Shown in pieces: positions 405 through 14,575 of a DNA stretch of 40,396 bases (positions are counted from its first letter, which is position 1; every line of letters begins with the position of its first letter). Origin of the DNA: Chloroflexota bacterium (GTDB lineage: Bacteria > Chloroflexota > Dehalococcoidia > Lucifugimonadales > UBA3495); the NCBI GenBank assembly GCA_009840175.1, contig VXOI01000256.1, forward strand, positions 1 through 40,396. Reading direction: 5' to 3'. Position numbers and translations under genes: made by a program. Under the pieces are notes generated by a model that was not told the origin of the DNA, did not search any database, and saw only the letters and a program-made list of their open reading frames with translations.

Positions 405-746
405 TCAGAGCCTGAAAACAGTAACTACCATCAGAACCAGCGCAATGAAGCCGAACCCCAGCGTGACAAAAGTGAGAATCCAGCTTGTCAAGCCAATACC
501 TTTTTTCAACCCTTCACGCGAATCGGCTATGCTGGTGTGCCAGATGGAGATGGTGGCTGTGGTGACTGCCAGAAGAATGACAATGAATGGAAAAACCAAC
601 GCGGTTTTCTCGAAGCCGCCGTCATCTCCGACGAGAGTTATCAACGGGAGCATCAAGAAGCTGATGGTGAGGGCGATGCCGAGGTTGAGAGCGCCCAGGC
701 CACTCAGGGAAGGGAGATCAGGGGAAGGGTTCTCAGGGGTGGTCAT
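405..746 (-). CDS. Small three-helix membrane protein
   Basis: A 113-residue protein. I chose ATG 744-746 because AAGGAGG (753-759) sits just upstream. A longer reading from 815 has no such site. After a short Pro/Ser-rich N-terminus there are three hydrophobic segments, near residues 18-40, 46-70 and 84-112, separated by an acidic loop (GDDGG) and a Ser-Arg-Glu-Gly loop. No family was recognised. The leader (820-869) carries an array of four 11-bp direct repeats like the one before the membrane winged-helix gene at 953-2095, so the two genes are probably co-regulated. Confidence 0.6.
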   Translation of the reverse strand: MTTPENPSPDLPSLSGLGALNLGIALTISFLMLPLITLVGDDGGFEKTALVFPFIVILLAVTTATISIWHTSIADSREGLKKGIGLTSWILTFVTLGFGFIALVLMVVTVFRL

Positions 747-819
747 CGCGGTGCCTCCTTCAAAATGCGATAGTGCTAGGTGACTGGCCCTGATTGTTAC
801 TGACGCAGAGGCCAATGTG

Positions 820-869
820 AACCGAAAGTGGCTAGGTTATAGCTAGGTTACGGCTAGGATACAGCTATG
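820..869 (-). promoter_or_regulatory. 11-bp direct-repeat operator array 1
   Basis: GCTAGG cores start at 831, 842 and 853, with GCTATG at 864: four units at an exact 11-base period. Read on the minus strand, toward the gene at 746, they are ATCCTAGCC-type repeats followed by the block AGCCACTTTCGGTT (820-833). The same 14-base block abuts array 2. An 11-bp direct repeat in the leader is typical of sites for OmpR/PhoB/SARP-type winged helices. That a regulator in this window binds it is inference. Confidence 0.6.
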
Positions 870-952
870 ATTGACCCTGATGCGTAGCCGGGTTATACAT
901 CAGGGCTGAGGCAGACTTGAGAGGTGGCTACAAGACCGAACCAGGCGGGAGG

Positions 953-2095
953 TTAGAAGCCGTTCATGGGCGGCGCGTCATGGTAGTCCAGGAAGCAGAC
1001 CTTGACCGTCTCCGGGATATACGAGCCGTCGTCGTCCCGGTGTACGGGAACCAGGGGCGCGCGTTTATACAGTTGGGCAAAGATATCGCTGACGTTGAAC
1101 CCTTCCCGGCCTGGCAGGTCGGGCTCCAGCATGGTTTCCAGCTCCCCCGCGGTAAAAGGCGTTCCCGGATGCCGGGCATAGACGCACAGCAACAGGAATG
1201 GCCCTTTGCGCCGTCCCCGGAAGGATATCTTCTTCCACTGACCGTCCGCTTTGGCGAAAGCGGTTCCCGACGCCTTGTCCACCAGCAGATCGGTGTCCGT
1301 GAGGAGATCATCTTTGTTGGCGAGCATATCTTCGTACTGGCTCCGGCTGATGACGGACTCCTCTCCGTTCAGCACCGCCACAAAGGCTGAAGAGTCCTGG
1401 GGCGCCGTCTGTTCGGTGTCGGCTTCCCTTTCTTCGCCGGGCACGGTCCACCTCAGGGCCGCCCCCAGCATGGAACCGCCGAGAGCCACGGCCATATAGC
1501 AGGTTCCCGCGATGCCATAGGCCAGCAGCCCGTTTCTATGACGCTGATTGAACTCTTCCGCCGGGTATCCCAAGTCGCTCCAGGCAAATTCCCAGGTCCA
1601 GAAGAAGTTGCTGCCGGAGGGCGAGTGCTCGATGAGATACATCACCAGCATTCCCGACACGGCCAAGGCGGTCAATAACAGGATGATGGCGGCCCCGACG
1701 ACGAACAGGATGCGGGCCATTCCGGTATCAAGACGGGTTTTGGGGTCATTGAGGGCGGCAGTGATGCAGAGCGAAGCCGCCATGATTCCCGCCACGCCTA
1801 AAACGACAGGTTTATTGTCGTATCCGGTGAGAAAGAATGCCGGGAGGAAAGCGACGGCCACCGGCACTCCGAAGATTACCGCGTTGCGGTGGTAAGCCTC
1901 GTACCTGCTGTTGGCGAACCAGGCCCGTTTCCGCAACGGCAGATAGGCAAGATAACCCGCTCCGGCGGATAGTGTGCCCAAGGCAAGAGAAAGCGCCAGC
2001 GGCCAGGGACGGGTCGCCACCGGCTCAAGGGTAAAGAAACCGTACTGGTCCATTCCGGTGGTGGCGGTCGAGACCGCGGGCAGGTTCAACATCAC
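953..2095 (-). CDS. Membrane-anchored OmpR-like winged-helix protein, paralogue 1
   Basis: 380 residues from GTG 2093-2095. Five hydrophobic segments lie near residues 31-53, 71-91, 95-115, 127-155 and 189-213, followed by an acidic linker and a C-terminal domain (about 237-380). In that domain, KGPFLLLCVYARHPG, FTAGELETML, NVSDIFAQLYKR and a GSYIPETVKVCF hairpin follow the alpha1-alpha2-alpha3-wing order of an OmpR-type DNA-binding domain. The loop before the last helix is aromatic and ends LGYPAEEFNQRHR. The protein at 8957-10324 is a clear paralogue with one more N-terminal helix. The equivalent helix is encoded upstream here, but no ATG/GTG/TTG precedes it. ATT 2171-2173, 7 bases after AAGGA, is a possible rare start that would give 406 residues. 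Proposed role: a membrane-tethered transcription regulator. Confidence 0.72.
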   Translation of the reverse strand: MMLNLPAVSTATTGMDQYGFFTLEPVATRPWPLALSLALGTLSAGAGYLAYLPLRKRAWFANSRYEAYHRNAVIFGVPVAVAFLPAFFLTGYDNKPVVLGVAGIMAASLCITAALNDPKTRLDTGMARILFVVGAAIILLLTALAVSGMLVMYLIEHSPSGSNFFWTWEFAWSDLGYPAEEFNQRHRNGLLAYGIAGTCYMAVALGGSMLGAALRWTVPGEEREADTEQTAPQDSSAFVAVLNGEESVISRSQYEDMLANKDDLLTDTDLLVDKASGTAFAKADGQWKKISFRGRRKGPFLLLCVYARHPGTPFTAGELETMLEPDLPGREGFNVSDIFAQLYKRAPLVPVHRDDDGSYIPETVKVCFLDYHDAPPMNGF

Positions 2096-2257
2096 CAGAA
2101 GAGAGATGACCAGCAGCCTTCCCAGCCATGGCGCCGGAGGTGAAGCTGCGGATGCCGCCTTGCTTATCCCAATTTGACTATCCTTATTGGCGACAAGGGG
2201 AAATGTCTTCAGTCACCGCCTGTTTAATCAAGGATAGGGGAAGCAGGATTGCAAATA

Positions 2258-2322
2258 AACCGAAAGTGGCTAGGATATGGCTAGGATATAACTAGGATTA
2301 GGATATGACTAGGATATGGATA
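2258..2322 (-). promoter_or_regulatory. 11-bp direct-repeat operator array 2
   Basis: Units GCTAGG 2269, GCTAGG 2280, ACTAGG 2291, ATTAGG 2297 and ACTAGG 2308 are spaced 11, 11, 6 and 11 bases, so two 11-bp phases are offset by half a turn. The array is bordered on the gene-proximal side by the same AGCCACTTTCGGTT block (2258-2271) as array 1. It precedes the membrane winged-helix gene at 953-2095, which suggests autoregulation (inference). Confidence 0.62.
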
Positions 2323-2470
2323 TGATTTGCTCGTATTTGTTGGCGCAGGCAGTTAGAAAGAGCGCCGGGAGGAAAGGTATGGAGACTGGCGCTCTCAAGA
2401 CCTCTGGTTGCGACGGTAAACCCTTGTATGCGTGAGGAAGTGGGAGACCGCCCCGGCAGTGGGGGTCTTG

Positions 2471-4217: not shown

Positions 4218-4979
4218 TTACACACTCTTGGGCAAGTGAACGTTCATCAGTTCCATAAACCCGTTGAAATCGTAGTCGGCCATGTTCAACCGGCCCAGTT
4301 CGGCCATCACCGCTTCCCACGTTACAGGAATCGCGCCGGCCTGGATTATCCGCTGCATACCGCGCTCGTGGGCGTCAACACTGGTTCCGCCGGACGAATC
4401 CGACACGGCGTACACCTGGTAGCCTTCGTTGAGCAGGTCCAGCGCGGGAAACACCAGGCAAACCTCCGTCCACAGACCGGCCATTATCAGCTTGCGGCGT
4501 CCGGTGGCGGCCACCGCCTCGCGGAAGGCTGGTTCCTCCCCGCTTGCCTCGTTGCTCAGGATTTTTAGCAGCATCCGCACGAATTCCGCCTGTTCTTCAA
4601 CGTCCAGCCGGTTCAGGAAATGGTCGTTGTTGGCGTGTACGTGGTGGGCCAGTCGCGGCACCAGCTCTCGCCCGGCGGCGGTCAGGGTGATACGCACGGC
4701 GCGGCGGTCCCTGGCGCTGCGCCTCCGCTGGACCAGCCCCTTCTCAACCAGCCGGTCAACCTGGCGGCTGATGGCGGCGGGGTCTACCGGTATGTACCGG
4801 CACAGCGTTGATACCGAGTCGGCCTCGCCCTTGTAGCAGGTCTCCAGAATGGCCCACTGGGGCGTGGTGATGCCGTGTGGCGCCAGGCGGCGGTTGAGGC
4901 CGTTCCTCAACGCCGAGCCCAGAGAGCCGAGCCAAAACCCAAACCCGTCCTGCGGCGTTTCCCTTTGCTGACTATACAT
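4218..4979 (-). CDS. MarR-family regulator fused to the C-terminal half of an isochorismatase-like hydrolase
   Basis: 253 residues. Residues 1-145 form a MarR winged helix: TPQWAILETC, DPAAISRQVDRLVEKGLVQR (recognition helix) and the wing SARDRRAVRITLTAAG. Residues 148-225 match the second half of YcaC-type cysteine hydrolases: AVAATGRRKLIMAGLWTEVC, with the family's nucleophilic cysteine at C174, then FPALDLLNEGYQVYAVSDSSGG and QRIIQAGAIPVTWEAV. The first half of that fold, which holds the catalytic Asp and Lys, is absent, so hydrolase activity is unlikely. The half-domain may sense a ligand or form a dimer interface (inference). The gene precedes the MFS exporter, and its promoter overlaps an inverted repeat suited to autorepression. 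Confidence 0.82.
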   Translation of the reverse strand: MYSQQRETPQDGFGFWLGSLGSALRNGLNRRLAPHGITTPQWAILETCYKGEADSVSTLCRYIPVDPAAISRQVDRLVEKGLVQRRRSARDRRAVRITLTAAGRELVPRLAHHVHANNDHFLNRLDVEEQAEFVRMLLKILSNEASGEEPAFREAVAATGRRKLIMAGLWTEVCLVFPALDLLNEGYQVYAVSDSSGGTSVDAHERGMQRIIQAGAIPVTWEAVMAELGRLNMADYDFNGFMELMNVHLPKSV

Positions 4980-4984
4980 GACTA

Positions 4985-5014
4985 GACAATATATGACTTA
5001 TCAATAATTGTCAA
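4985..5014 (-). promoter_or_regulatory. Promoter and putative MarR operator before the fusion regulator
   Basis: On the minus strand, TTGACA (5009-5014) is followed after 17 bases by TATTGT (4986-4991), a good sigma-70-type pair. The inverted repeat GACAAT (4985-4990)/ATTGTC (5007-5012) covers both boxes, as expected for MarR autorepression. The ATG at 4979 lies 7 bases after the -10 box, where transcription would begin, so the mRNA may be leaderless. Confidence 0.55.
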
Positions 5015-5049
5015 GACATATATAAGCAGAAAAATCAGCCAAAGAGAAA

Positions 5050-5075
5050 CCCCCACCGTTAAAGGACGGTGGGGG
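5050..5075 (-). terminator. Intrinsic terminator after the lyase gene
   Basis: CCCCCACCGT (5050-5059) and ACGGTGGGGG (5066-5075) form a perfect 10-bp stem with a 6-base loop, 43 bases past the stop of the lyase gene. The minus strand then reads a T-rich tract (TTTCTCTTTGGCTGATTTTT). Confidence 0.7.
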
Positions 5076-5118
5076 CTCACGAGGCGCAATGGCCTGGGAT
5101 ATAACCCGGGTCTGCGGG

Positions 5119-6006
5119 TCAGTGTTCCCGGTGCTGCTGGAACTCGCGCTCGGTGGTCTCGGCTTCGACCTGCTGGTATTCCGGGAGGCTGATAAGGGCC
5201 TCCACCCCGGCGCGCATCCGGGCCACCTGGGGGGCATTGATGCCGATGTGGCCGGTGTCGCGCAGGCTCTCGTAGATTTGTCGGATGCCGTCAACTGCCG
5301 CGATGATTGATGACGTGGCGTAGATGAGGAACTGGCAACCGAGGTCGCGGTATTCCTCCACCGTGATGTCGTCGGCCCCGGCAATCACCATCAGCGGCAC
5401 ATCGGGCACGCCCCGGCGGAAGGTCGCCAGGTCTTCGCGGCTGCGGACGCCGCGTGGCATTACAAGGTCCACGCCCAGGTCGCGCAGCGCGTTGCCCCGG
5501 CGGATGGCCTCGTCCATGTCGCCCTCGACGGCGGTGAAGGCATCGGTGCGGCCCACGATGAGGAAGTCGGGGTCGGTGCGGGCCTGGAGCGCGTAGCTTA
5601 TCTTCTGGAGGAACTCGTCCATGGGGATGACGTGCTCCAGCCCGGCATGGTATGAGGCTCGCTTGGGGAAGAACTGGTCTTCGATGTGGATGCCGGCCAC
5701 TCCCGCCTTCTCGAAGGAGCGCACCGTGTGCATGGCGTGCACCGGCTCGCCGTAGCCCGCGTCGGCGTCAACGATGACGGGCAGCGGCACCGCCCGCACC
5801 ACCCTTTCGGCCACGGAAAGCTGCTCGGTCATGGTCATCAGCGGCTCGGTCACCGCTAGGTGCGCGCCGGAAATGTAGCCGCCGCAGTAGACGGCGTTGA
5901 AGCCCAGCGACTGCACCAGCCGCGCCGATATGGGGTCGTAGGCGCCGGGAGCCACAATCTGCTCCCCTGAGTTGATTCTGGCTCTTAGGTCAGTTCGTAC
6001 AGACAT
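5119..6006 (-). CDS. Isocitrate lyase/PEP mutase superfamily enzyme
   Basis: 295 residues from ATG 6004-6006, chosen for the GGAGG 8 bases upstream. An in-frame start at 6027 lacks a site. The sequence is a TIM-barrel lyase of the PEP mutase/2-methylisocitrate lyase group: PGAYDPISARLVQSLGFNAVYCGGY at the N-terminus, the metal-binding VDADAGYGEP, and GVAGIHIEDQ followed by FPKRASYHAG in place of the KKCG loop of isocitrate lyase. IVGRTDAF follows. Without the Cys of KKCG it is more likely a C-C lyase on a small 2-oxo acid (oxaloacetate decarboxylase or carboxyphosphonoenolpyruvate mutase type) than isocitrate lyase. The exact substrate cannot be read. The gene is monocistronic, with a terminator downstream. 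Confidence 0.85.
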   Translation of the reverse strand: MSVRTDLRARINSGEQIVAPGAYDPISARLVQSLGFNAVYCGGYISGAHLAVTEPLMTMTEQLSVAERVVRAVPLPVIVDADAGYGEPVHAMHTVRSFEKAGVAGIHIEDQFFPKRASYHAGLEHVIPMDEFLQKISYALQARTDPDFLIVGRTDAFTAVEGDMDEAIRRGNALRDLGVDLVMPRGVRSREDLATFRRGVPDVPLMVIAGADDITVEEYRDLGCQFLIYATSSIIAAVDGIRQIYESLRDTGHIGINAPQVARMRAGVEALISLPEYQQVEAETTEREFQQHREH

Positions 6007-7653: not shown

Positions 7654-8706
7654 TTACTGAAAGTCCAGGGGGCTTTGGGTCTCAGCTTGTCTTCTCCGGC
7701 GACTAATCAGCCAGAGGAGGATGACAGCCAGGAGCAGCGCGACAGCGATTACAACTGCGATCAGCAATATGAACAGCAGGGTCATATTATCGCCTTCATC
7801 TTCCTCACCTCCATCGGATGGCAGCGGGGATGCCGTGCTGTCTGTGCGAGGCGCAGGGGTGAATTGGAGTGAAGCGCTTGCGGTTGGCTCGGGTGTAGGA
7901 GTGGATTCAGCCGTCGGAGTCGGTTGCGGCTCTGCGGTGGACGTAGGTTCGGGAGCCGCCGTGGGTTCAGGCGTCGAGGTTGGCTGGGGAGCGGCAGTGG
8001 TCGTTGGCTGCGCTGTGGGTTCGGGAGCCGGCGTTGGCTGAGGTGCGGCAGTAGGCGTCGGTTGCGCCGTGGGTTCAGGCGTTGGAGTTGGCTCAGGTGC
8101 GCCAGCCAGGATCTCCAAAATTTCGGCATGTCCGCGCCATGCCGCTTCGCTGACAGCGGTTGTTCCGTCCGGGGCGCGGGCCAGCGGGTCTGCTCCCGCT
8201 TCCACCAATATCCTCACTATCTCGGTGTGTCTGCGCCATGTCGCCTCAATCAAAATTGGAACATCATCTGCATCCAGGGCGTTGGGGTTTGCTCCGGCGT
8301 CCACTAACATCTGTACTATCTCTCGATGGTCACGCCATACAGCTTCGTACAGAATAGGATTGCCGTCCGAATCGCGAGCATTTACGTCCGCTCCGGCTCT
8401 GATCAATGCCTCGACTGCGCCCTTATTCCCTCGCCAGACCGGATCGTACAGAATGGAGTTGCCCTCAGCGTCCCGTTCGTTGGTTAGCCTGGTTGTCGGT
8501 TCGGGCGTTGGCGTCGGGGCTGCCGCCGGTTCGGGAGTTTCCGGGGTGTCCGCCTGCCGTGCCGGGGGCGCTTCGCCGCTCATCGCGTCCGCGTATGCTG
8601 TCCCCGGCGGCGCAGAGACTACCGTGACTAGGACGGCCAGCGACAAGGCGGCCAAGAGCGCGATGGAGAGCGCGGTTTTCGGGATGGTTGCCAGGTTGAT
8701 GCCCAT
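7654..8706 (-). CDS. Secreted, membrane-anchored ankyrin-repeat protein
   Basis: 350 residues. ATG 8704-8706 has AAGGAGA about 9 bases upstream. Residues 1-38 are a signal peptide (hydrophobic 12-32, then APPGTAYA). Residues about 75-208 are four ankyrin repeats with a shared Trp-Arg helix (PVWRGNKGAVEALIRAGADV, AVWRDHREIVQMLVDAGANP, ATWRRHTEIVRILVEAGADP, AAWRGHAEILEIL). Residues 210-300 are a Thr/Pro/Glu/Ala low-complexity stalk. Residues about 313-338 are a membrane helix, followed by SRRRRQ as an inside-positive stop. The repeats should therefore face outward on a stalk, which is unusual for ankyrins in bacteria. Array 3 of the 11-bp repeats is in its leader. The protein is probably a surface receptor or adhesin (inference). 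Confidence 0.85.
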   Translation of the reverse strand: MGINLATIPKTALSIALLAALSLAVLVTVVSAPPGTAYADAMSGEAPPARQADTPETPEPAAAPTPTPEPTTRLTNERDAEGNSILYDPVWRGNKGAVEALIRAGADVNARDSDGNPILYEAVWRDHREIVQMLVDAGANPNALDADDVPILIEATWRRHTEIVRILVEAGADPLARAPDGTTAVSEAAWRGHAEILEILAGAPEPTPTPEPTAQPTPTAAPQPTPAPEPTAQPTTTAAPQPTSTPEPTAAPEPTSTAEPQPTPTAESTPTPEPTASASLQFTPAPRTDSTASPLPSDGGEEDEGDNMTLLFILLIAVVIAVALLLAVILLWLISRRRRQAETQSPLDFQ

Positions 8707-8860
8707 AACGTGCTATCTCCTTTTGTTCTCCCAGTCCTTGCGGATTTCGGGAATGATTTTGGGCAGGAGGGCTGGGAGATACCGGGTATTGAGCCGTCTC
8801 CCTGGCCTGCCCTTCCACCCCACCCTAGAACCGCGCCCGTGTAGAGAACAAGGAAAAATG

Positions 8861-8899
8861 GCTACGATATGGGTAGAGTATGGGTACGATATGGCTTTA
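8861..8899 (-). promoter_or_regulatory. 11-bp direct-repeat operator array 3
   Basis: GCTACG 8861, GGTAGA 8872, GGTACG 8883 and GCTTTA 8894 keep an exact 11-base period. The unit is a diverged form of arrays 1 and 2 (GGCTACGATAT against GGCTAGGATAT). On the minus strand it ends in AGCCATTTTTCCTT, which matches the AGCCACTTTCGGTT border of the other two arrays at 10 of 14 bases. It lies 155 bases before the ankyrin gene. Confidence 0.55.
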
Positions 8900-8956: not shown

Positions 8957-10324
8957 TTAGAGGCGGGTGCTGTCCGAGGCGGTCAACATCGCTGGCCTGA
9001 CGCCCGGTCGGTTGTCCAGAAAGCAAATGTTGACCGTTTCCGGGATATAAGAGCCTTCGGCGTCGCGCCGGACAGGAACGCGGGGACTTTGCCGCTTCTG
9101 CAACTGGGCGAAAAAGTTGCTGACGTTGAGGTCCGAACGGTCCGGCAGTTCCATTCGTAACAGGGATTCCAGTTCCGATGAGGTGAACCGCCTGCCGGGA
9201 TGCCGGGCGTAAAGGCACAAGAGCAGGAACGGCCCCTTGAGCCTACCCCGGAATGCTATCCTCTTCCATCTGCCGCCGTCATTGACGAAGGCGGTTCCCG
9301 ATGCCTTGTCCACCAGCAGGCCAGCCTCTTGGAGCAGCCGCTCCTTGTCGGCCAGCAGGCCCTCGTACTGCCTTGCGCTGATGGCGATTTCGCGCCCGTT
9401 CAGCGAGGCCACGAAGTCCGGCTCGTCACTGGATTGGTTATGCTCCCCGGCCAGTACGCTCAATACTGCGTCGGCCCAGTCCGGAGGTGACTCCCCGTCC
9501 AGGTTTTCCGGCGCTGGCCAGGGCGGCGGCGACGGTGGTTCTGGGACTGCCGGTTGGCCCTGCCGGACTTGCGGCGCCTCATCCTGCATTGCTGTGGCGC
9601 TGGCCCGGCGCGATAAAGGACCCAGGAACAGCCCGATTGGAATCAAGGTCATGCAACCGGCCCCAGCGGCAGTAAAGGCAAGGAAAGCTGTACGCTGGCG
9701 CTGGTCGAACTGCTCCGGCGGGTATCCCAGACTGCCCCAGGAAAAATCCCATGACCAGAGGAAATTGCCAGTGGGCGCTATCTGGCTGACATAATGCAGA
9801 ACCAGCATCCCGGCCATCCATACTGCCAGCAGCAGCAAAAGAGCAATGGCGCCGCTGATAAACCAGTATCGCGCTATTTCGGGATGCAGCCGGACCTCCC
9901 CGTCTTTCAAAGCGGCGGCGATACCCAAAAAGCCAGCCGTCCCAACGCCGATAAAGATGAAGTAAGGCTTCGTGCCGTAACTGGTCAGTAACAGGGAAGG
10001 AAGCATGGCCAGAGCCACCGGGGGGCCGAACAACAGCGCGTAACGCCTCAAGCCGCCTTGTATCTCGTAGAGCCGGGCGGCGAAGCCGGTGTCAGGCCGC
10101 AGTTCGCTAATGGCGCGGTATGAGGCATAGGCCAGCAGGGATAAAGCGACGTTGGCGGCAGCAGCCAGAATCAAAGGCCATCCCGCCGCCAACCCCAGTG
10201 AGAAGAAGCCGTATTGGTCCATGCCGGTGAAGCCGACGAATATCAGCGGCAGGTTCAGCCCCGCCAGCAACGATACCAGCAGTAGAACGCCTACGGATGG
10301 CAAACGAGTCTGAGGCATTAACAT
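8957..10324 (-). CDS. Membrane-anchored OmpR-like winged-helix protein, paralogue 2
   Basis: 455 residues. Six membrane segments lie near residues 10-32, 48-70, 93-115, 119-138, 152-178 and 212-236, followed by a Pro-rich linker (about 245-305) and a C-terminal domain (about 311-445) nearly collinear with that of paralogue 1: QYEGLLADKERLL, LLVDKASGTAF, FRGRLKGPFLLLCLYARHPG, FTSSELESLL, NVSNFFAQLQKR, GSYIPETVNICF. This resembles an OmpR-type winged helix placed in the cytoplasm at the end of the protein, the reverse of ToxR/CadC order. Both paralogues share an aromatic loop between the last two helices (LWSWDFSWGSLGYPPEQF) that could be the sensing surface. A second ATG at 10318 is equally possible. 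It is probably a tethered regulator. DNA binding is inferred, not shown. Confidence 0.75.
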   Translation of the reverse strand: MLMPQTRLPSVGVLLLVSLLAGLNLPLIFVGFTGMDQYGFFSLGLAAGWPLILAAAANVALSLLAYASYRAISELRPDTGFAARLYEIQGGLRRYALLFGPPVALAMLPSLLLTSYGTKPYFIFIGVGTAGFLGIAAALKDGEVRLHPEIARYWFISGAIALLLLLAVWMAGMLVLHYVSQIAPTGNFLWSWDFSWGSLGYPPEQFDQRQRTAFLAFTAAGAGCMTLIPIGLFLGPLSRRASATAMQDEAPQVRQGQPAVPEPPSPPPWPAPENLDGESPPDWADAVLSVLAGEHNQSSDEPDFVASLNGREIAISARQYEGLLADKERLLQEAGLLVDKASGTAFVNDGGRWKRIAFRGRLKGPFLLLCLYARHPGRRFTSSELESLLRMELPDRSDLNVSNFFAQLQKRQSPRVPVRRDAEGSYIPETVNICFLDNRPGVRPAMLTASDSTRL

Positions 10325-10342
10325 ATCGTCTGCTTCCCGGTA

Positions 10343-10412
10343 TCACTCCCCGGATCGAGGCCAAGTTCGGGGGCCTGTTCGCACTAACATCGTTCCTGCC
10401 TCCGAAAAAATT
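10343..10412 (-). pseudogene. Fossil 5' end resembling the lyase gene start
   Basis: The minus strand reads TTTTCGGAGGCAGGAACG, then ATG (10388-10390) and LVRTGPR. The intact lyase gene starts with TTTTCGGAGGCAGAAACA, ATG, SVRTDLR. Leader, ribosome site and first codons match, and both are followed outward by the CACAGAG-type repeat. The frame closes after 15 codons. It appears to be a truncated copy of a lyase-family 5' end. Confidence 0.35.
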
Positions 10413-10413
10413 A

Positions 10414-10476
10414 ACCACAGAGGACACAGAGACCACAGAGGACACAGAGTTTTTCTTTGTCTCTGTGTCCTCTGTG
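10414..10476 (-). terminator. CACAGAGGACACAGAG hairpin, likely terminator
   Basis: An 18-base unit (10414-10431) is repeated in tandem (10432-10449). The second copy pairs with CTCTGTGTCCTCTGTG (10461-10476) in a perfect 16-bp stem with an 11-base loop. It starts 24 bases beyond the stop of the LLM oxidoreductase at 10500, and a T6 run follows on the minus strand at 10405-10410. A related fragment occurs at 6034-6058, so this is also a dispersed repeat. Confidence 0.5.
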
Positions 10477-10499
10477 CGCTCCATGCTGAAAACTCCCGG

Positions 10500-11456
10500 T
10501 TAGTCCTGCGGGATGAGGGGAACCACCTCGCGGGAGAACTGCTCCATGTTTTCCTGGAGCGACGCCACGCTGTCGCCTGCCGGGAAGCCGATGATGAAGT
10601 TGGAGACGCCCAGGTCCATGTACTGGCGCAGGTCGGCGGCAATCTGTTCCGGGCGGCCATTCATCCACGGACGGGAGCCGTCGGCGGCGTTGTTGAAACG
10701 GACGTCGGTGCTGAAGGTCAGGTCAACGGCGTTCTCGTCGCGCCCTGCCTGTACCGTCAGGCGGCGCAGGCGGGCGATGAGGCCGGACAGTTCCTCCGGC
10801 TCCAGTATCGCGGGCGGGCGCAGGCCGATGGGCATCCAGCCGTCGCCGTGGCGGGCGGCGCGGCGGATGGCCGGGCCGGTGTGTCCGCCAATCCAGATGG
10901 GCGGGTGCGGCTGCTGCGTTGGCTTGGGCGAGAATCCGCTGCCGGAAATCTGATAGAACTCGCCATCGAAGGACGGGGTATCGCTGGTCCACAGCTCCTT
11001 GTACAGCTCGATGTACTCATCGGTAACCGCGCCGCGCCTGGCGTAGCTGTCCAGGCCCAGGGCCTCGAACTCTTCCTCCATCCAGCCCACGCCTGCGCCC
11101 AGGATGACCCGCCCGCCGGACAGAACGTCGAGGGTCGAAATCATCTTGGCGGCCAGCACCGGGTTGCGGTAAGGGAGGATGAGCACGTGGGTGCCAAGCC
11201 GTACCCGCTGGGTGCAGCCGGCGAGGAAGTTCAGAGCGGCCAGAGGGTCAAAGTAGGGCTCGTCGGGCCGGAAGGTGGCGACGCCGTCGGCGGCGTAGGG
11301 ATAGAAGGAGCTGACTTCGCGGGGCAGGATGACGTGGTCGCTGACCCAGATGTGGTCGAAGCCCAAATCGTCGGCCCGCTGGGCCAGGGCGCGCAGCTCG
11401 TCGGGCCCGGCCAGCGGGCCGCGAGTGGGAACGGAAGTGCCGAAGGTGACTGGCAT
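10500..11456 (-). CDS. LLM-class flavin/F420-dependent oxidoreductase
   Basis: 318 residues from ATG 11454-11456, chosen for GGAGG 5 bases upstream. An upstream extension to 11534 is not luciferase-like. It is a luciferase-like TIM barrel: GFDHIWVSDHVILP, FDPLAALNFLAGCTQRVRLGTHVLILPYRNP, the strongly conserved DVLSGGRVILGAGVGWMEEEFEALG, then QQPHPPIWIGGHTGPAIRRAARHGDGW. These match the probable F420-dependent TIGR-type subgroup, which reduces or oxygenates an organic substrate with a reduced flavin or deazaflavin cofactor. The substrate is unknown. SAR202-type genomes carry many such paralogues (family knowledge), and a second, distinct one is at 23820-25046. Confidence 0.88.
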   Translation of the reverse strand: MPVTFGTSVPTRGPLAGPDELRALAQRADDLGFDHIWVSDHVILPREVSSFYPYAADGVATFRPDEPYFDPLAALNFLAGCTQRVRLGTHVLILPYRNPVLAAKMISTLDVLSGGRVILGAGVGWMEEEFEALGLDSYARRGAVTDEYIELYKELWTSDTPSFDGEFYQISGSGFSPKPTQQPHPPIWIGGHTGPAIRRAARHGDGWMPIGLRPPAILEPEELSGLIARLRRLTVQAGRDENAVDLTFSTDVRFNNAADGSRPWMNGRPEQIAADLRQYMDLGVSNFIIGFPAGDSVASLQENMEQFSREVVPLIPQD

Positions 11457-11539
11457 GATGTCCTCCGGTAGCGCGGATTCGCGCTTTACCTGTTCTAGAG
11501 TTGTGGCGCAAGTGTAGCAGATGCTCCGGTTCAAGCGAA

Positions 11540-12622: not shown

Positions 12623-14575
12623 TTGAGCTCTGAAACCGTCGGCTTCATTTTCCCCGGGAGAGGATTCAGGGGATACCGGGCTGCTGTCCGGGCGCTAACC
12701 CTGTTAGTTCTGTTGACGTTTGGGGCCATCGCCTGCGACCTGCTGGAAACTCCCGAACCTTCGCCGACAGCTACCCCGGTCCGCCCTACCGAGAGGGCTG
12801 CGCCGACCCCTGAGCCGATGGAACCCACTCCTCAGCCCGGGGGCGGGCTGGTCTTGCAGGTCTCGGTTGCTCTCGTTCCTGAGAACATCCCTGAATACGA
12901 CCGTGGCGAATGGCGTCACTGGACCGATGAAGACAGCGATTGCCAGAATGCCCGGCAGGAAGTGCTGATTGCCGAGTCCACCGTCGCCGTAAGGTTTCAG
13001 ACGCCCGACGAATGCCGGGTGGCGTCTGGACGCTGGCAGGGGCCGTACACCGGAGAAGTGGAGACCGATCCAGGGAAGCTGGACATTGACCACCTGGTTC
13101 CGCTGGAGAACGCCCATCGCTCCGGCGCGTGGGCATGGGACCGGGAGCGCAAGCGCGAATTTGCCAATTACATTGGCTATGACAATCATCTCCTCGCCAC
13201 TAGCAGTTCGGCCAACCGTTCCAAGGGGTCGAAAGGCCCGGAAAGGTGGCGGCCTCCCTTGGAAAGCTACTGGTGCGTTTACGCCATAGACTGGATTGTG
13301 GTCAAGAGCGATTGGGGATTAACCGTCACCGAAGCCGAATTCGGAGCGCTGCGGCAAATGCTTGCAACCTGCCCCATGCCGGCGCTGCTGCAACGCGCCG
13401 GTGAAATTCGCCAGCCAGCCCAAACAATCGCCGCCACGCCTGCGCCAATGGCTACGGAAACTCCGACACCAACCGCGGCTGTTGCAACCCCTACCCCGCG
13501 ACCCACTGCGCCACCGGGGCTGAAGTATGATCCCTTCGGCCCCGACCGAAACTGCGGAGACTTCGACACCTATGAAGAGGCATTGGATTTCTACCTGGCC
13601 GCCGGAGGGCCTGCTCAAGACCCGCACAACCTGGATTCCAACGGCGACGGGAAGCCGTGCGATTCCTTGCCCAGATCCAGGTCCATCGGTCAGTCTGCGA
13701 TGGTTCCGGCTTCCGGCTCATCTGCGATGGCTGTTCCGGTGTCCTTCAGCCCGATGGCGCACCAGGCGCTCGCAGTTCCAACCTTGACGCCAACTCCGGC
13801 CTTGTTGCCCACACCTGCGGAGGTAATTGCCCTCGTCCCAACAGCTAATCCTACTCCTGTGCCGACTCCTCCCCCCTTGCCATCGCCAACCCCAATCCCT
13901 GCGCTGGCCGCCACTCCTGTGCCAGCGCTGATGTCCTCTTCCAGTCCTGAGCCTGCCTCCGTGGCAACACCGCCCGTTGAACTATTGCCCGTCCCCGAGT
14001 TCCCAAACCTTCCGTATGACCCTGATGGGCCTGATAGAAGCTGCGCAGACTTCGCTTCGTGGTGGGAAGCCCAGAACTTCTATTACGCTGCCGGAGGCCC
14101 AGGCAGTGATCCGCACCGTCTCGACGGGAATGGGGACGGTGTGGCCTGCCAGTCCTTAAGGGATATGCCTGCCGAAGTACCGGAACCTGTCCAGCTTGAG
14201 CCTGAAACAACACCGGCAGAGGATGTGTCTGGCTTCGCAGACCGGGACTGTGGCGACTTCGACACTTGGCAAGAGGCGCATGAGTTCTTCATTTCCGAAG
14301 GCGGGCCTGGTGGCGACTCGCATGGATTGGACAGAGACGGGAACGGCGTGGCGTGCCAGTCGCTTCCCGGCGGGAAGGAGAAAGACCTTGAACCGCCCCT
14401 GTCTGCGGGTGAGATACCGCCCCCGGAAGAGAGCGTCTTTGTTGACCGCAACTGCGGCGACTTCGGCACGTGGCAGGAAGCGCAGGATTTCTTCCTGTCG
14501 GAGGGCGGCCCGGAAAATGATCCACACCGACTCGACAGGAACGGAGACGGCATCGCCTGCGAATCCCTTGCCTGA
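12623..14575 (+). CDS. Secreted lipoprotein HNH nuclease with four Excalibur domains
   Basis: 650 residues from TTG 12623, with AGGGA upstream. The signal peptide ends in lipobox FGAIAC (C38), followed by a Thr/Pro linker. Residues about 85-245 are an HNH domain of the DUF1524/GmrSD C-terminal type: DIDHLVPLENAHRSG (His157 in the D-H pair), NYIGYDNHLLATSSSANRSKG (the N and second part of the finger) and a Cys-bearing tail. Thr/Pro linkers then join four Excalibur calcium-binding domains near residues 309-350, 472-513, 540-583 and 606-650. Each has RxC-x-DF at the front and a Dx(N/D)GDGxxC loop at the end (NGDGKPC, NGDGVAC, DGNGVAC, NGDGIAC). It is likely a surface nuclease for extracellular DNA, scavenging phosphate or nucleosides or degrading competitor DNA. 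Confidence 0.87.
   Translation: MSSETVGFIFPGRGFRGYRAAVRALTLLVLLTFGAIACDLLETPEPSPTATPVRPTERAAPTPEPMEPTPQPGGGLVLQVSVALVPENIPEYDRGEWRHWTDEDSDCQNARQEVLIAESTVAVRFQTPDECRVASGRWQGPYTGEVETDPGKLDIDHLVPLENAHRSGAWAWDRERKREFANYIGYDNHLLATSSSANRSKGSKGPERWRPPLESYWCVYAIDWIVVKSDWGLTVTEAEFGALRQMLATCPMPALLQRAGEIRQPAQTIAATPAPMATETPTPTAAVATPTPRPTAPPGLKYDPFGPDRNCGDFDTYEEALDFYLAAGGPAQDPHNLDSNGDGKPCDSLPRSRSIGQSAMVPASGSSAMAVPVSFSPMAHQALAVPTLTPTPALLPTPAEVIALVPTANPTPVPTPPPLPSPTPIPALAATPVPALMSSSSPEPASVATPPVELLPVPEFPNLPYDPDGPDRSCADFASWWEAQNFYYAAGGPGSDPHRLDGNGDGVACQSLRDMPAEVPEPVQLEPETTPAEDVSGFADRDCGDFDTWQEAHEFFISEGGPGGDSHGLDRDGNGVACQSLPGGKEKDLEPPLSAGEIPPPEESVFVDRNCGDFGTWQEAQDFFLSEGGPENDPHRLDRNGDGIACESLA

Follow-up and report, generated by a model that had tools for sequence, protein, structure and literature searches.

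The window, that is, the whole analysed stretch of 40,396 nucleotides, carries two related genes that encode putative membrane-anchored transcriptional regulators. The first of them, P0001, has an intact open reading frame at exactly the position assigned to it by the initial annotation, and the presence of homologous genes in other genomes indicates that this frame is not a chance one. The second copy, also claimed in that annotation, is present and is 45% identical to P0001 over nearly the whole length (E 8e-94); no third copy of the architecture of six helices plus a winged helix is found in the genome of origin (G000, 268 contigs). The features of these two genes are the following:

8957..10324, minus strand: P0001 (regulator 1), 455 aa, a six-helix membrane module followed by an OmpR-type winged helix
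9614..10294, minus strand: membrane module of P0001, with six helices predicted in residues 11-237 (from hydropathy; homologous to the module of XRE-type relatives)
9698..9766, minus strand: conserved aromatic loop of P0001, residues 187-209, between helices 5 and 6 (from the alignment and the predicted topology)
9011..9421, minus strand: winged-helix domain of P0001, residues 302-438 (from AlphaFold2 and fold matches)
953..2095, minus strand: regulator 2, paralogue of P0001, frame open to 2212
986..1384, minus strand: winged-helix domain of regulator 2, sharing 60% identity with the P0001 domain

The only standard start of regulator 2, a GTG at 2095, would fall inside helix 1. Since the frame remains open to 2212, a non-ATG start upstream of 2095 is likely, for example the ATT at 2173, which is preceded by AAGGAT. 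Searches of Pfam, NCBIfam, and PADLOC with the regulator proteins returned no usable family, and no description of a family with six helices and a C-terminal winged helix was found in the literature search. Directly upstream of P0001, at 10414-10484, ACCACAGAGGACACAGAG occurs twice in tandem and then as an inverted copy, forming a strong hairpin, which would either act as terminator for the gene upstream or represent a small mobile repeat. Elsewhere in the window, a reading frame at 4218-4979 on the minus strand joins a MarR-type domain (residues 35-94) to only the C-terminal half of an isochorismatase/YcaC-like hydrolase (148-251), being either a fusion or a deletion product. Another frame, at 12623-14575 on the plus strand, encodes a secreted lipoprotein that contains an HNH-like region together with several DRNCGDFDTWQEAQDFF..GGPxxDPHxLDxNGDGxACESL repeats (excalibur-like).

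The C-terminal domain of P0001, modelled alone with AlphaFold2 (pLDDT 79.9, pTM 0.75), shows the element order b-b-a-b-b-b-a-a-a-b-b-b. Foldseek matched this model to BaeR with a probability of 1.0 and to ToxR with 0.90-0.93, with E-values of only 0.007-0.08. The VIA-align Z scores were 9.4 for BaeR, 8.5 for VicR, 8.4 for CovR, 8.0 for PhoB, and 7.7 for ToxR (89-99 residues, 2.5-3.2 A); values of 7-8 can reflect a common arrangement, but nearly all top rows in this case belong to the OmpR-type family. The OmpR-like nature that the initial annotation had proposed for this domain is thus confirmed in the predicted structure, which is that of a winged helix. The support at the sequence level is weaker than the structural one, yet in register: hhalign aligned P0001-type domains with the ordinary OmpR-type domains of the same genome over 49 columns (E 1e-4), and a profile match of the winged helix to a SARP-like regulator reached 23.8 bits. 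None of five members matched the Pfam model Trans_reg_C (PF00486), even at E-values up to 10. A profile search of PDB sequences with the domain returned nothing significant, only weak ArlR matches at E 1.5, and a fold search was required. No receiver domain (Response_reg) is matched in P0001, the membrane module standing in its place.

According to the hydropathy averaged over the alignment, six helices (residues 11-29, 46-64, 96-114, 121-139, 158-176, and 219-237) precede the winged helix, which points to six where five or six helices had been suggested. The lysine and arginine counts of P0001 are 11 and 3 on the two sides of the membrane, placing both termini inside, and the trend per loop over five homologues agrees with this. 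The predicted topology is therefore N-in/C-in with a cytoplasmic C-terminal domain, as had been claimed; it rests on hydropathy and charge, the full-length AlphaFold2 model being poor in the membrane part (pLDDT 28-48). The longest predicted outer loop of P0001 comprises about 42 residues. Between helices 5 and 6, the aromatic loop highlighted by the initial annotation follows the motif W-x-W-[DE]-[FY]-x-W-x-x-[LM]-GYP-x-E-x-F-x-QR, whose key positions (W190, W192, W196, G200, Y201, P202, E204, F206, Q208, and R209) are invariant in five homologues. By the same hydropathy and charge this loop is predicted to be extracytoplasmic; it is a candidate sensing site.

The same architecture is found in four other genomes (G016, G089, G122, and G017) among the 250 searched of the order, and all the genomes with it belong to this one order of Dehalococcoidia. 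The full-length relative in G016 is 50% identical, while the copy in G017, partial because its contig ends inside the gene, is 97% identical over 286 aa. A sample of 400 genomes of the phylum provided no additional member; in the class-wide and phylum-wide samples the architecture appeared nowhere else, the sole match being a SARP-like protein, to the winged helix. On the other hand, relatives of the membrane part only (matching residues ~14-262) are many in the order, with up to five per genome. These proteins start with an XRE-type helix-turn-helix (Pfam HTH_31/HTH_3) and stop soon after the last helix. About 30 such relatives share the membrane module, with profile E-values down to 4e-29 over query residues 14-262, and they retain a reduced form of the aromatic loop, W-[ED]-x-[FYL]..LG[YFH]..E. 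The six-helix core, the MDxYGF loop, and the W..LGYP loop are common to both types; however, the XRE-type eight-helix proteins possess the N-terminal XRE domain and two extra helices and lack the C-terminal winged helix, whereas P0001 begins at helix 1, without the XRE domain. The shared module implies that DNA-binding domains have been attached to it twice over. For the XRE plus eight-helix proteins (L007-L025, L033-L057, L060), a good family model of the membrane part was not found either.

In a tree of the membrane module, the six winged-helix proteins form one clade (100/100), apart from 29 XRE and three other rows. Within this clade, regulator 2 groups with the G016 protein, and P0001 with that of G017 on a long branch. 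The G016 regulator is surrounded by genes for a PEP-mutase, a luciferase-like monooxygenase, mnmA, rnhB, and yraN, and in the window this gene order is broken by P0001, the ankyrin gene, and two fn3 genes. Together with the tree grouping, this gene order suggests that regulator 2 is probably the ancestral copy. The end of contig C15 of G017 (L064, 1-1994) is 91% identical in DNA to window positions 9466-11467, falling to ~69-70% further along, which suggests either a recent transfer or a chimeric assembly join.

Both regulator genes are flanked by three arrays of 11-bp direct repeats (GGCTAGGATAT), a motif that was first spotted by eye in the flanks of these two genes. The arrays and the candidate target genes beside them are:

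819..873, plus strand: array of 11-bp direct repeats close to the 3' end of regulator 2, preceding the small membrane protein gene
2257..2328, plus strand: array of 11-bp direct repeats ahead of regulator 2, a candidate for auto-regulation
8849..8892, plus strand: array of 11-bp direct repeats close to the 3' end of regulator 1, preceding the ankyrin gene
405..746, minus strand: candidate target, small membrane protein of 113 aa without a Pfam match, array 84 bp upstream
7654..8706, minus strand: candidate target, ankyrin-repeat protein with a signal sequence and a C-terminal membrane helix, array 154 bp upstream

No array is present upstream of P0001 itself. When the window was scanned for two tandem units of GGSTASGATAT with up to five mismatches, all ten matches fell within the three arrays (830-873, 2268-2328, and 8860-8892), against 0.1 in shuffled sequences, and Tandem Repeats Finder returned the same three with a period of 11. 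In the whole genome, a 22-mer with up to three mismatches gave nine matches and none for the reversed control, and a three-unit pattern gave seven against none; the strict form of the latter had no match in 49 members of the family, among them the congeneric G001. With further patterns included, the element is found at ten places on eight contigs of the genome: the window holds three, and C190, C100, C149, C49, C134, C256, and C4 hold one each, the C4 copy being decayed to about one unit plus the flank. The full element spans about 44 bp, equivalent to four 11-bp steps, and reads AAATCATAGyy-RTATCCTAnCC-ATATCCTAnCT-AyTTTcgGTTG on the target strand. Several positions of the last step (AyTTTcgGTT on the gene strand), which lies outside the scoring matrix, are conserved in nine of nine copies. 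No conserved -10 element could be demonstrated downstream of the arrays. Several other candidates were discarded: a match on C160 (two units inside a gene), one on C43 (no array), positions 1993910 and 2049546 of G122 (without a surrounding array, the second also intragenic), and positions 981524 and 1166498 of G016 (no array by the matrix).

Intact sites are invariably located 20-274 bp ahead of a start codon, on the strand opposite to that of the gene. The sites with a single possible target (the three of the window and that of C149) all have one orientation, so that orientation can be used to pick the target in divergent regions. In this way an ankyrin lipoprotein is selected over a glyA-like gene, a leucine-rich-repeat lipoprotein over a P450-like gene, a lectin/leucine-rich-repeat protein over a dinB-like gene, a lipoprotein over an antitoxin-like gene, and a VWA operon over a small membrane gene, these names being read from the sequence where Pfam was not run. 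Regulator 2 and an EamA-like membrane protein are further candidates, and the candidate targets belong for the most part to the membrane or the cell surface (ankyrin, leucine-rich-repeat, and lectin proteins, lipoproteins). The initial annotation had placed the targets between the two copies, but the MFS, MarR, and PEP-mutase genes located there have no array; instead, the arrays mark the ankyrin gene (8706), the small membrane gene (746), and the promoter of regulator 2. Neither these arrays nor the XRE-type relatives figured in the initial annotation. The upstream DNA is visible for four ankyrin genes, and three of them have an array; the probability of this is ~2e-7 by a rough hypergeometric calculation that assumed 3,900 genes and is biased, since one of these sites helped to find the motif. 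The operon behind the C100 array (L087, 6474-11555) encodes two VWA-like proteins, a PP2C-like phosphatase, a kinase-like protein, and a zinc-ribbon/protease-like protein. On C4 (L182, ~4600-5850), an ankyrin lipoprotein frame contains one in-frame TAG and has the decayed operator upstream; this gene and its site seem to be decaying together.

Factors of the OmpR family recognise direct repeats, and 11-bp units are known from the Streptomyces PHO box (PMC9019756, PMC10294691). The link between the regulators and the arrays consists solely of co-location and this repeat geometry. With the scoring matrix, built from G000 sites only, a weaker two-unit site was found just 3' of the regulator in G016, 160 bp ahead of a small membrane-protein gene, and likewise beside the regulator in G122, before a DUF805 gene and in the same orientation. 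The score of each was reached by none of 3,000 dinucleotide-preserving shuffles of its intergenic region, nor was any site scoring as high found in ~214 kb of other loci, the exception in L027 being the same G016 locus. No recognisable array stands beside the regulator of G089. None was found in the G017 genome, in which the contig ends inside the gene, where a neighbouring array would follow. G001, of the same genus, has neither the regulator nor good sites. It is probable, on balance, that these proteins act as one-component regulators with a multi-pass membrane module, reading an external cue and controlling envelope genes by binding to the tandem 11-bp repeats.

According to the proposed mechanism, the six helices would hold the regulator in the cytoplasmic membrane, and the short outer loops (GMDxYGFF after helix 1 and WxW[DE]FxW..LGYPxExFxQR before helix 6) would probably sense a cue from the envelope or from outside. 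A change in the helix bundle would then shift the position or the clustering of the winged helices, which would reach into the cytoplasm on a variable linker. Several winged-helix monomers could bind head to tail, one helical turn apart, on the ~44-bp element upstream of the promoters, and the bound regulators would adjust the expression of mostly envelope proteins, including regulator 2 itself, plus the VWA/PP2C operon. We infer that the regulators bind DNA, respond to a sensed cue, activate rather than repress transcription, and act without proteolytic release. The more complete reading, to which we would commit only about halfway, is that one membrane sensor module has been fitted with an XRE domain in front and with an OmpR-type winged helix at the back. 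In it, the winged-helix branch acts anchored on the 11-bp-repeat operators of a lineage-specific regulon of mostly surface proteins, the regulator having been duplicated and the operator having spread from the neighbour to about ten promoters.

Other explanations can be considered. The arrays might be operators of another regulator, for example an ordinary OmpR-type response regulator, the membrane proteins being merely targets or neighbours. Such 11-bp direct repeats would fit any OmpR-type factor, and the genome encodes about nine ordinary Trans_reg_C proteins, two of them next to large secreted proteins; nevertheless, three of the ten arrays lie within ~200 bp of the two regulator genes, a matching site stands beside the orthologue in two other genomes, and G001 lacks both the regulator and good sites; this explanation is considered unlikely. 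It has also to be asked whether the winged helix is freed from the membrane by a regulated protease and acts as a soluble factor. The long, variable linker that joins the domain to helix 6 (residues 238-300) would be suitable for it, and the membrane regulator TcpP is known to be under proteolytic control (PMC11323476). However, no conserved cleavage motif was seen and the length of the linker varies strongly among homologues, and we regard release as quite unlikely.

A role of the winged helix in protein contacts instead of DNA binding, the membrane module being then a transporter or a receptor of other function, appears very improbable. Winged helices can certainly bind proteins, the WHB domains of cullins are among the fold matches, and no Pfam DNA-binding model matches the domain. 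Against this, the best structural matches are DNA-binding OmpR-type domains, the same module bears a bona fide XRE domain in its relatives, and operator-like arrays adjoin the regulator genes. For the anchored, DNA-binding regulator, a simple history can be proposed in which it would first have controlled its neighbour and would later have been duplicated as the operator spread in the lineage.

In ToxR and CadC the DNA-binding domain comes first, while it comes last in TfoS, ChiS, and the hybrid two-component systems. The order found here is unusual beside ToxR and CadC, but not unique among membrane regulators. Like the ToxR-like receptors (ToxR, CadC, TcpP), these proteins are predicted to be one-component regulators that are anchored in the membrane and carry an OmpR-type winged helix on its cytoplasmic side, and structures of ToxR with DNA rank among the best fold matches. 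The definition of those receptors comprises a periplasmic sensor, a single helix, and the OmpR-type cytoplasmic domain (PMC5430869); here, by contrast, six helices are predicted instead of one, and the winged helix is last and no periplasmic domain exists, whereas theirs is first and is combined with a periplasmic sensor. Since two of the defining features are absent, the regulators are not placed among the ToxR-like receptors. The order of strands and helices matches that of the CadC DNA-binding domain (PMC5430869), plus a helical insertion. With the OmpR/PhoB response regulators they share the C-terminal fold, and direct repeats of ~11 bp, which are binding sites there, lie beside the genes here as candidate operators; they differ in having the membrane module instead of a receiver domain, no Trans_reg_C match, and the extra helical insertion, located after strand 2. 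Among the ordinary members of this class in the genome, OmpR-type response regulator genes on C169 and C36 (L199, L200) are each followed directly by the gene of a large secreted lipoprotein, of 1838 aa and with ankyrin repeats on C169 and of 584 aa on C36, and open frames of ~790-820 residues on C163, C200, and C19 (L134-L136) end in an OmpR-type winged helix and are possibly hybrid sensor-regulators.

The transmembrane transcription regulators (TTRs) combine a DNA-binding domain with a membrane region, and multi-pass members exist (Demey et al., 2023; PMC10269533). The present proteins resemble them in uniting a predicted DNA-binding domain and membrane helices in a single chain, although that survey (PMC10269533), which looked for genes coding for both a DNA-binding domain and a membrane region, would probably miss them, as no library model matches their domain. 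They constitute a family that is new to the libraries and the literature searched, within the broad TTR class.

Membrane-anchored regulators have to locate their sites on the DNA while remaining in the membrane, and the full target set is known for few of them. In this uncultured lineage of Dehalococcoidia, the sequence alone yields a regulator pair, a precise candidate operator, and about ten candidate targets. A domain without a library model means that family-based surveys probably overlook such regulators. Moreover, the attachment of distinct DNA-binding domains to the front or the back of one membrane sensor represents a natural experiment on the coupling of sensing to DNA binding.
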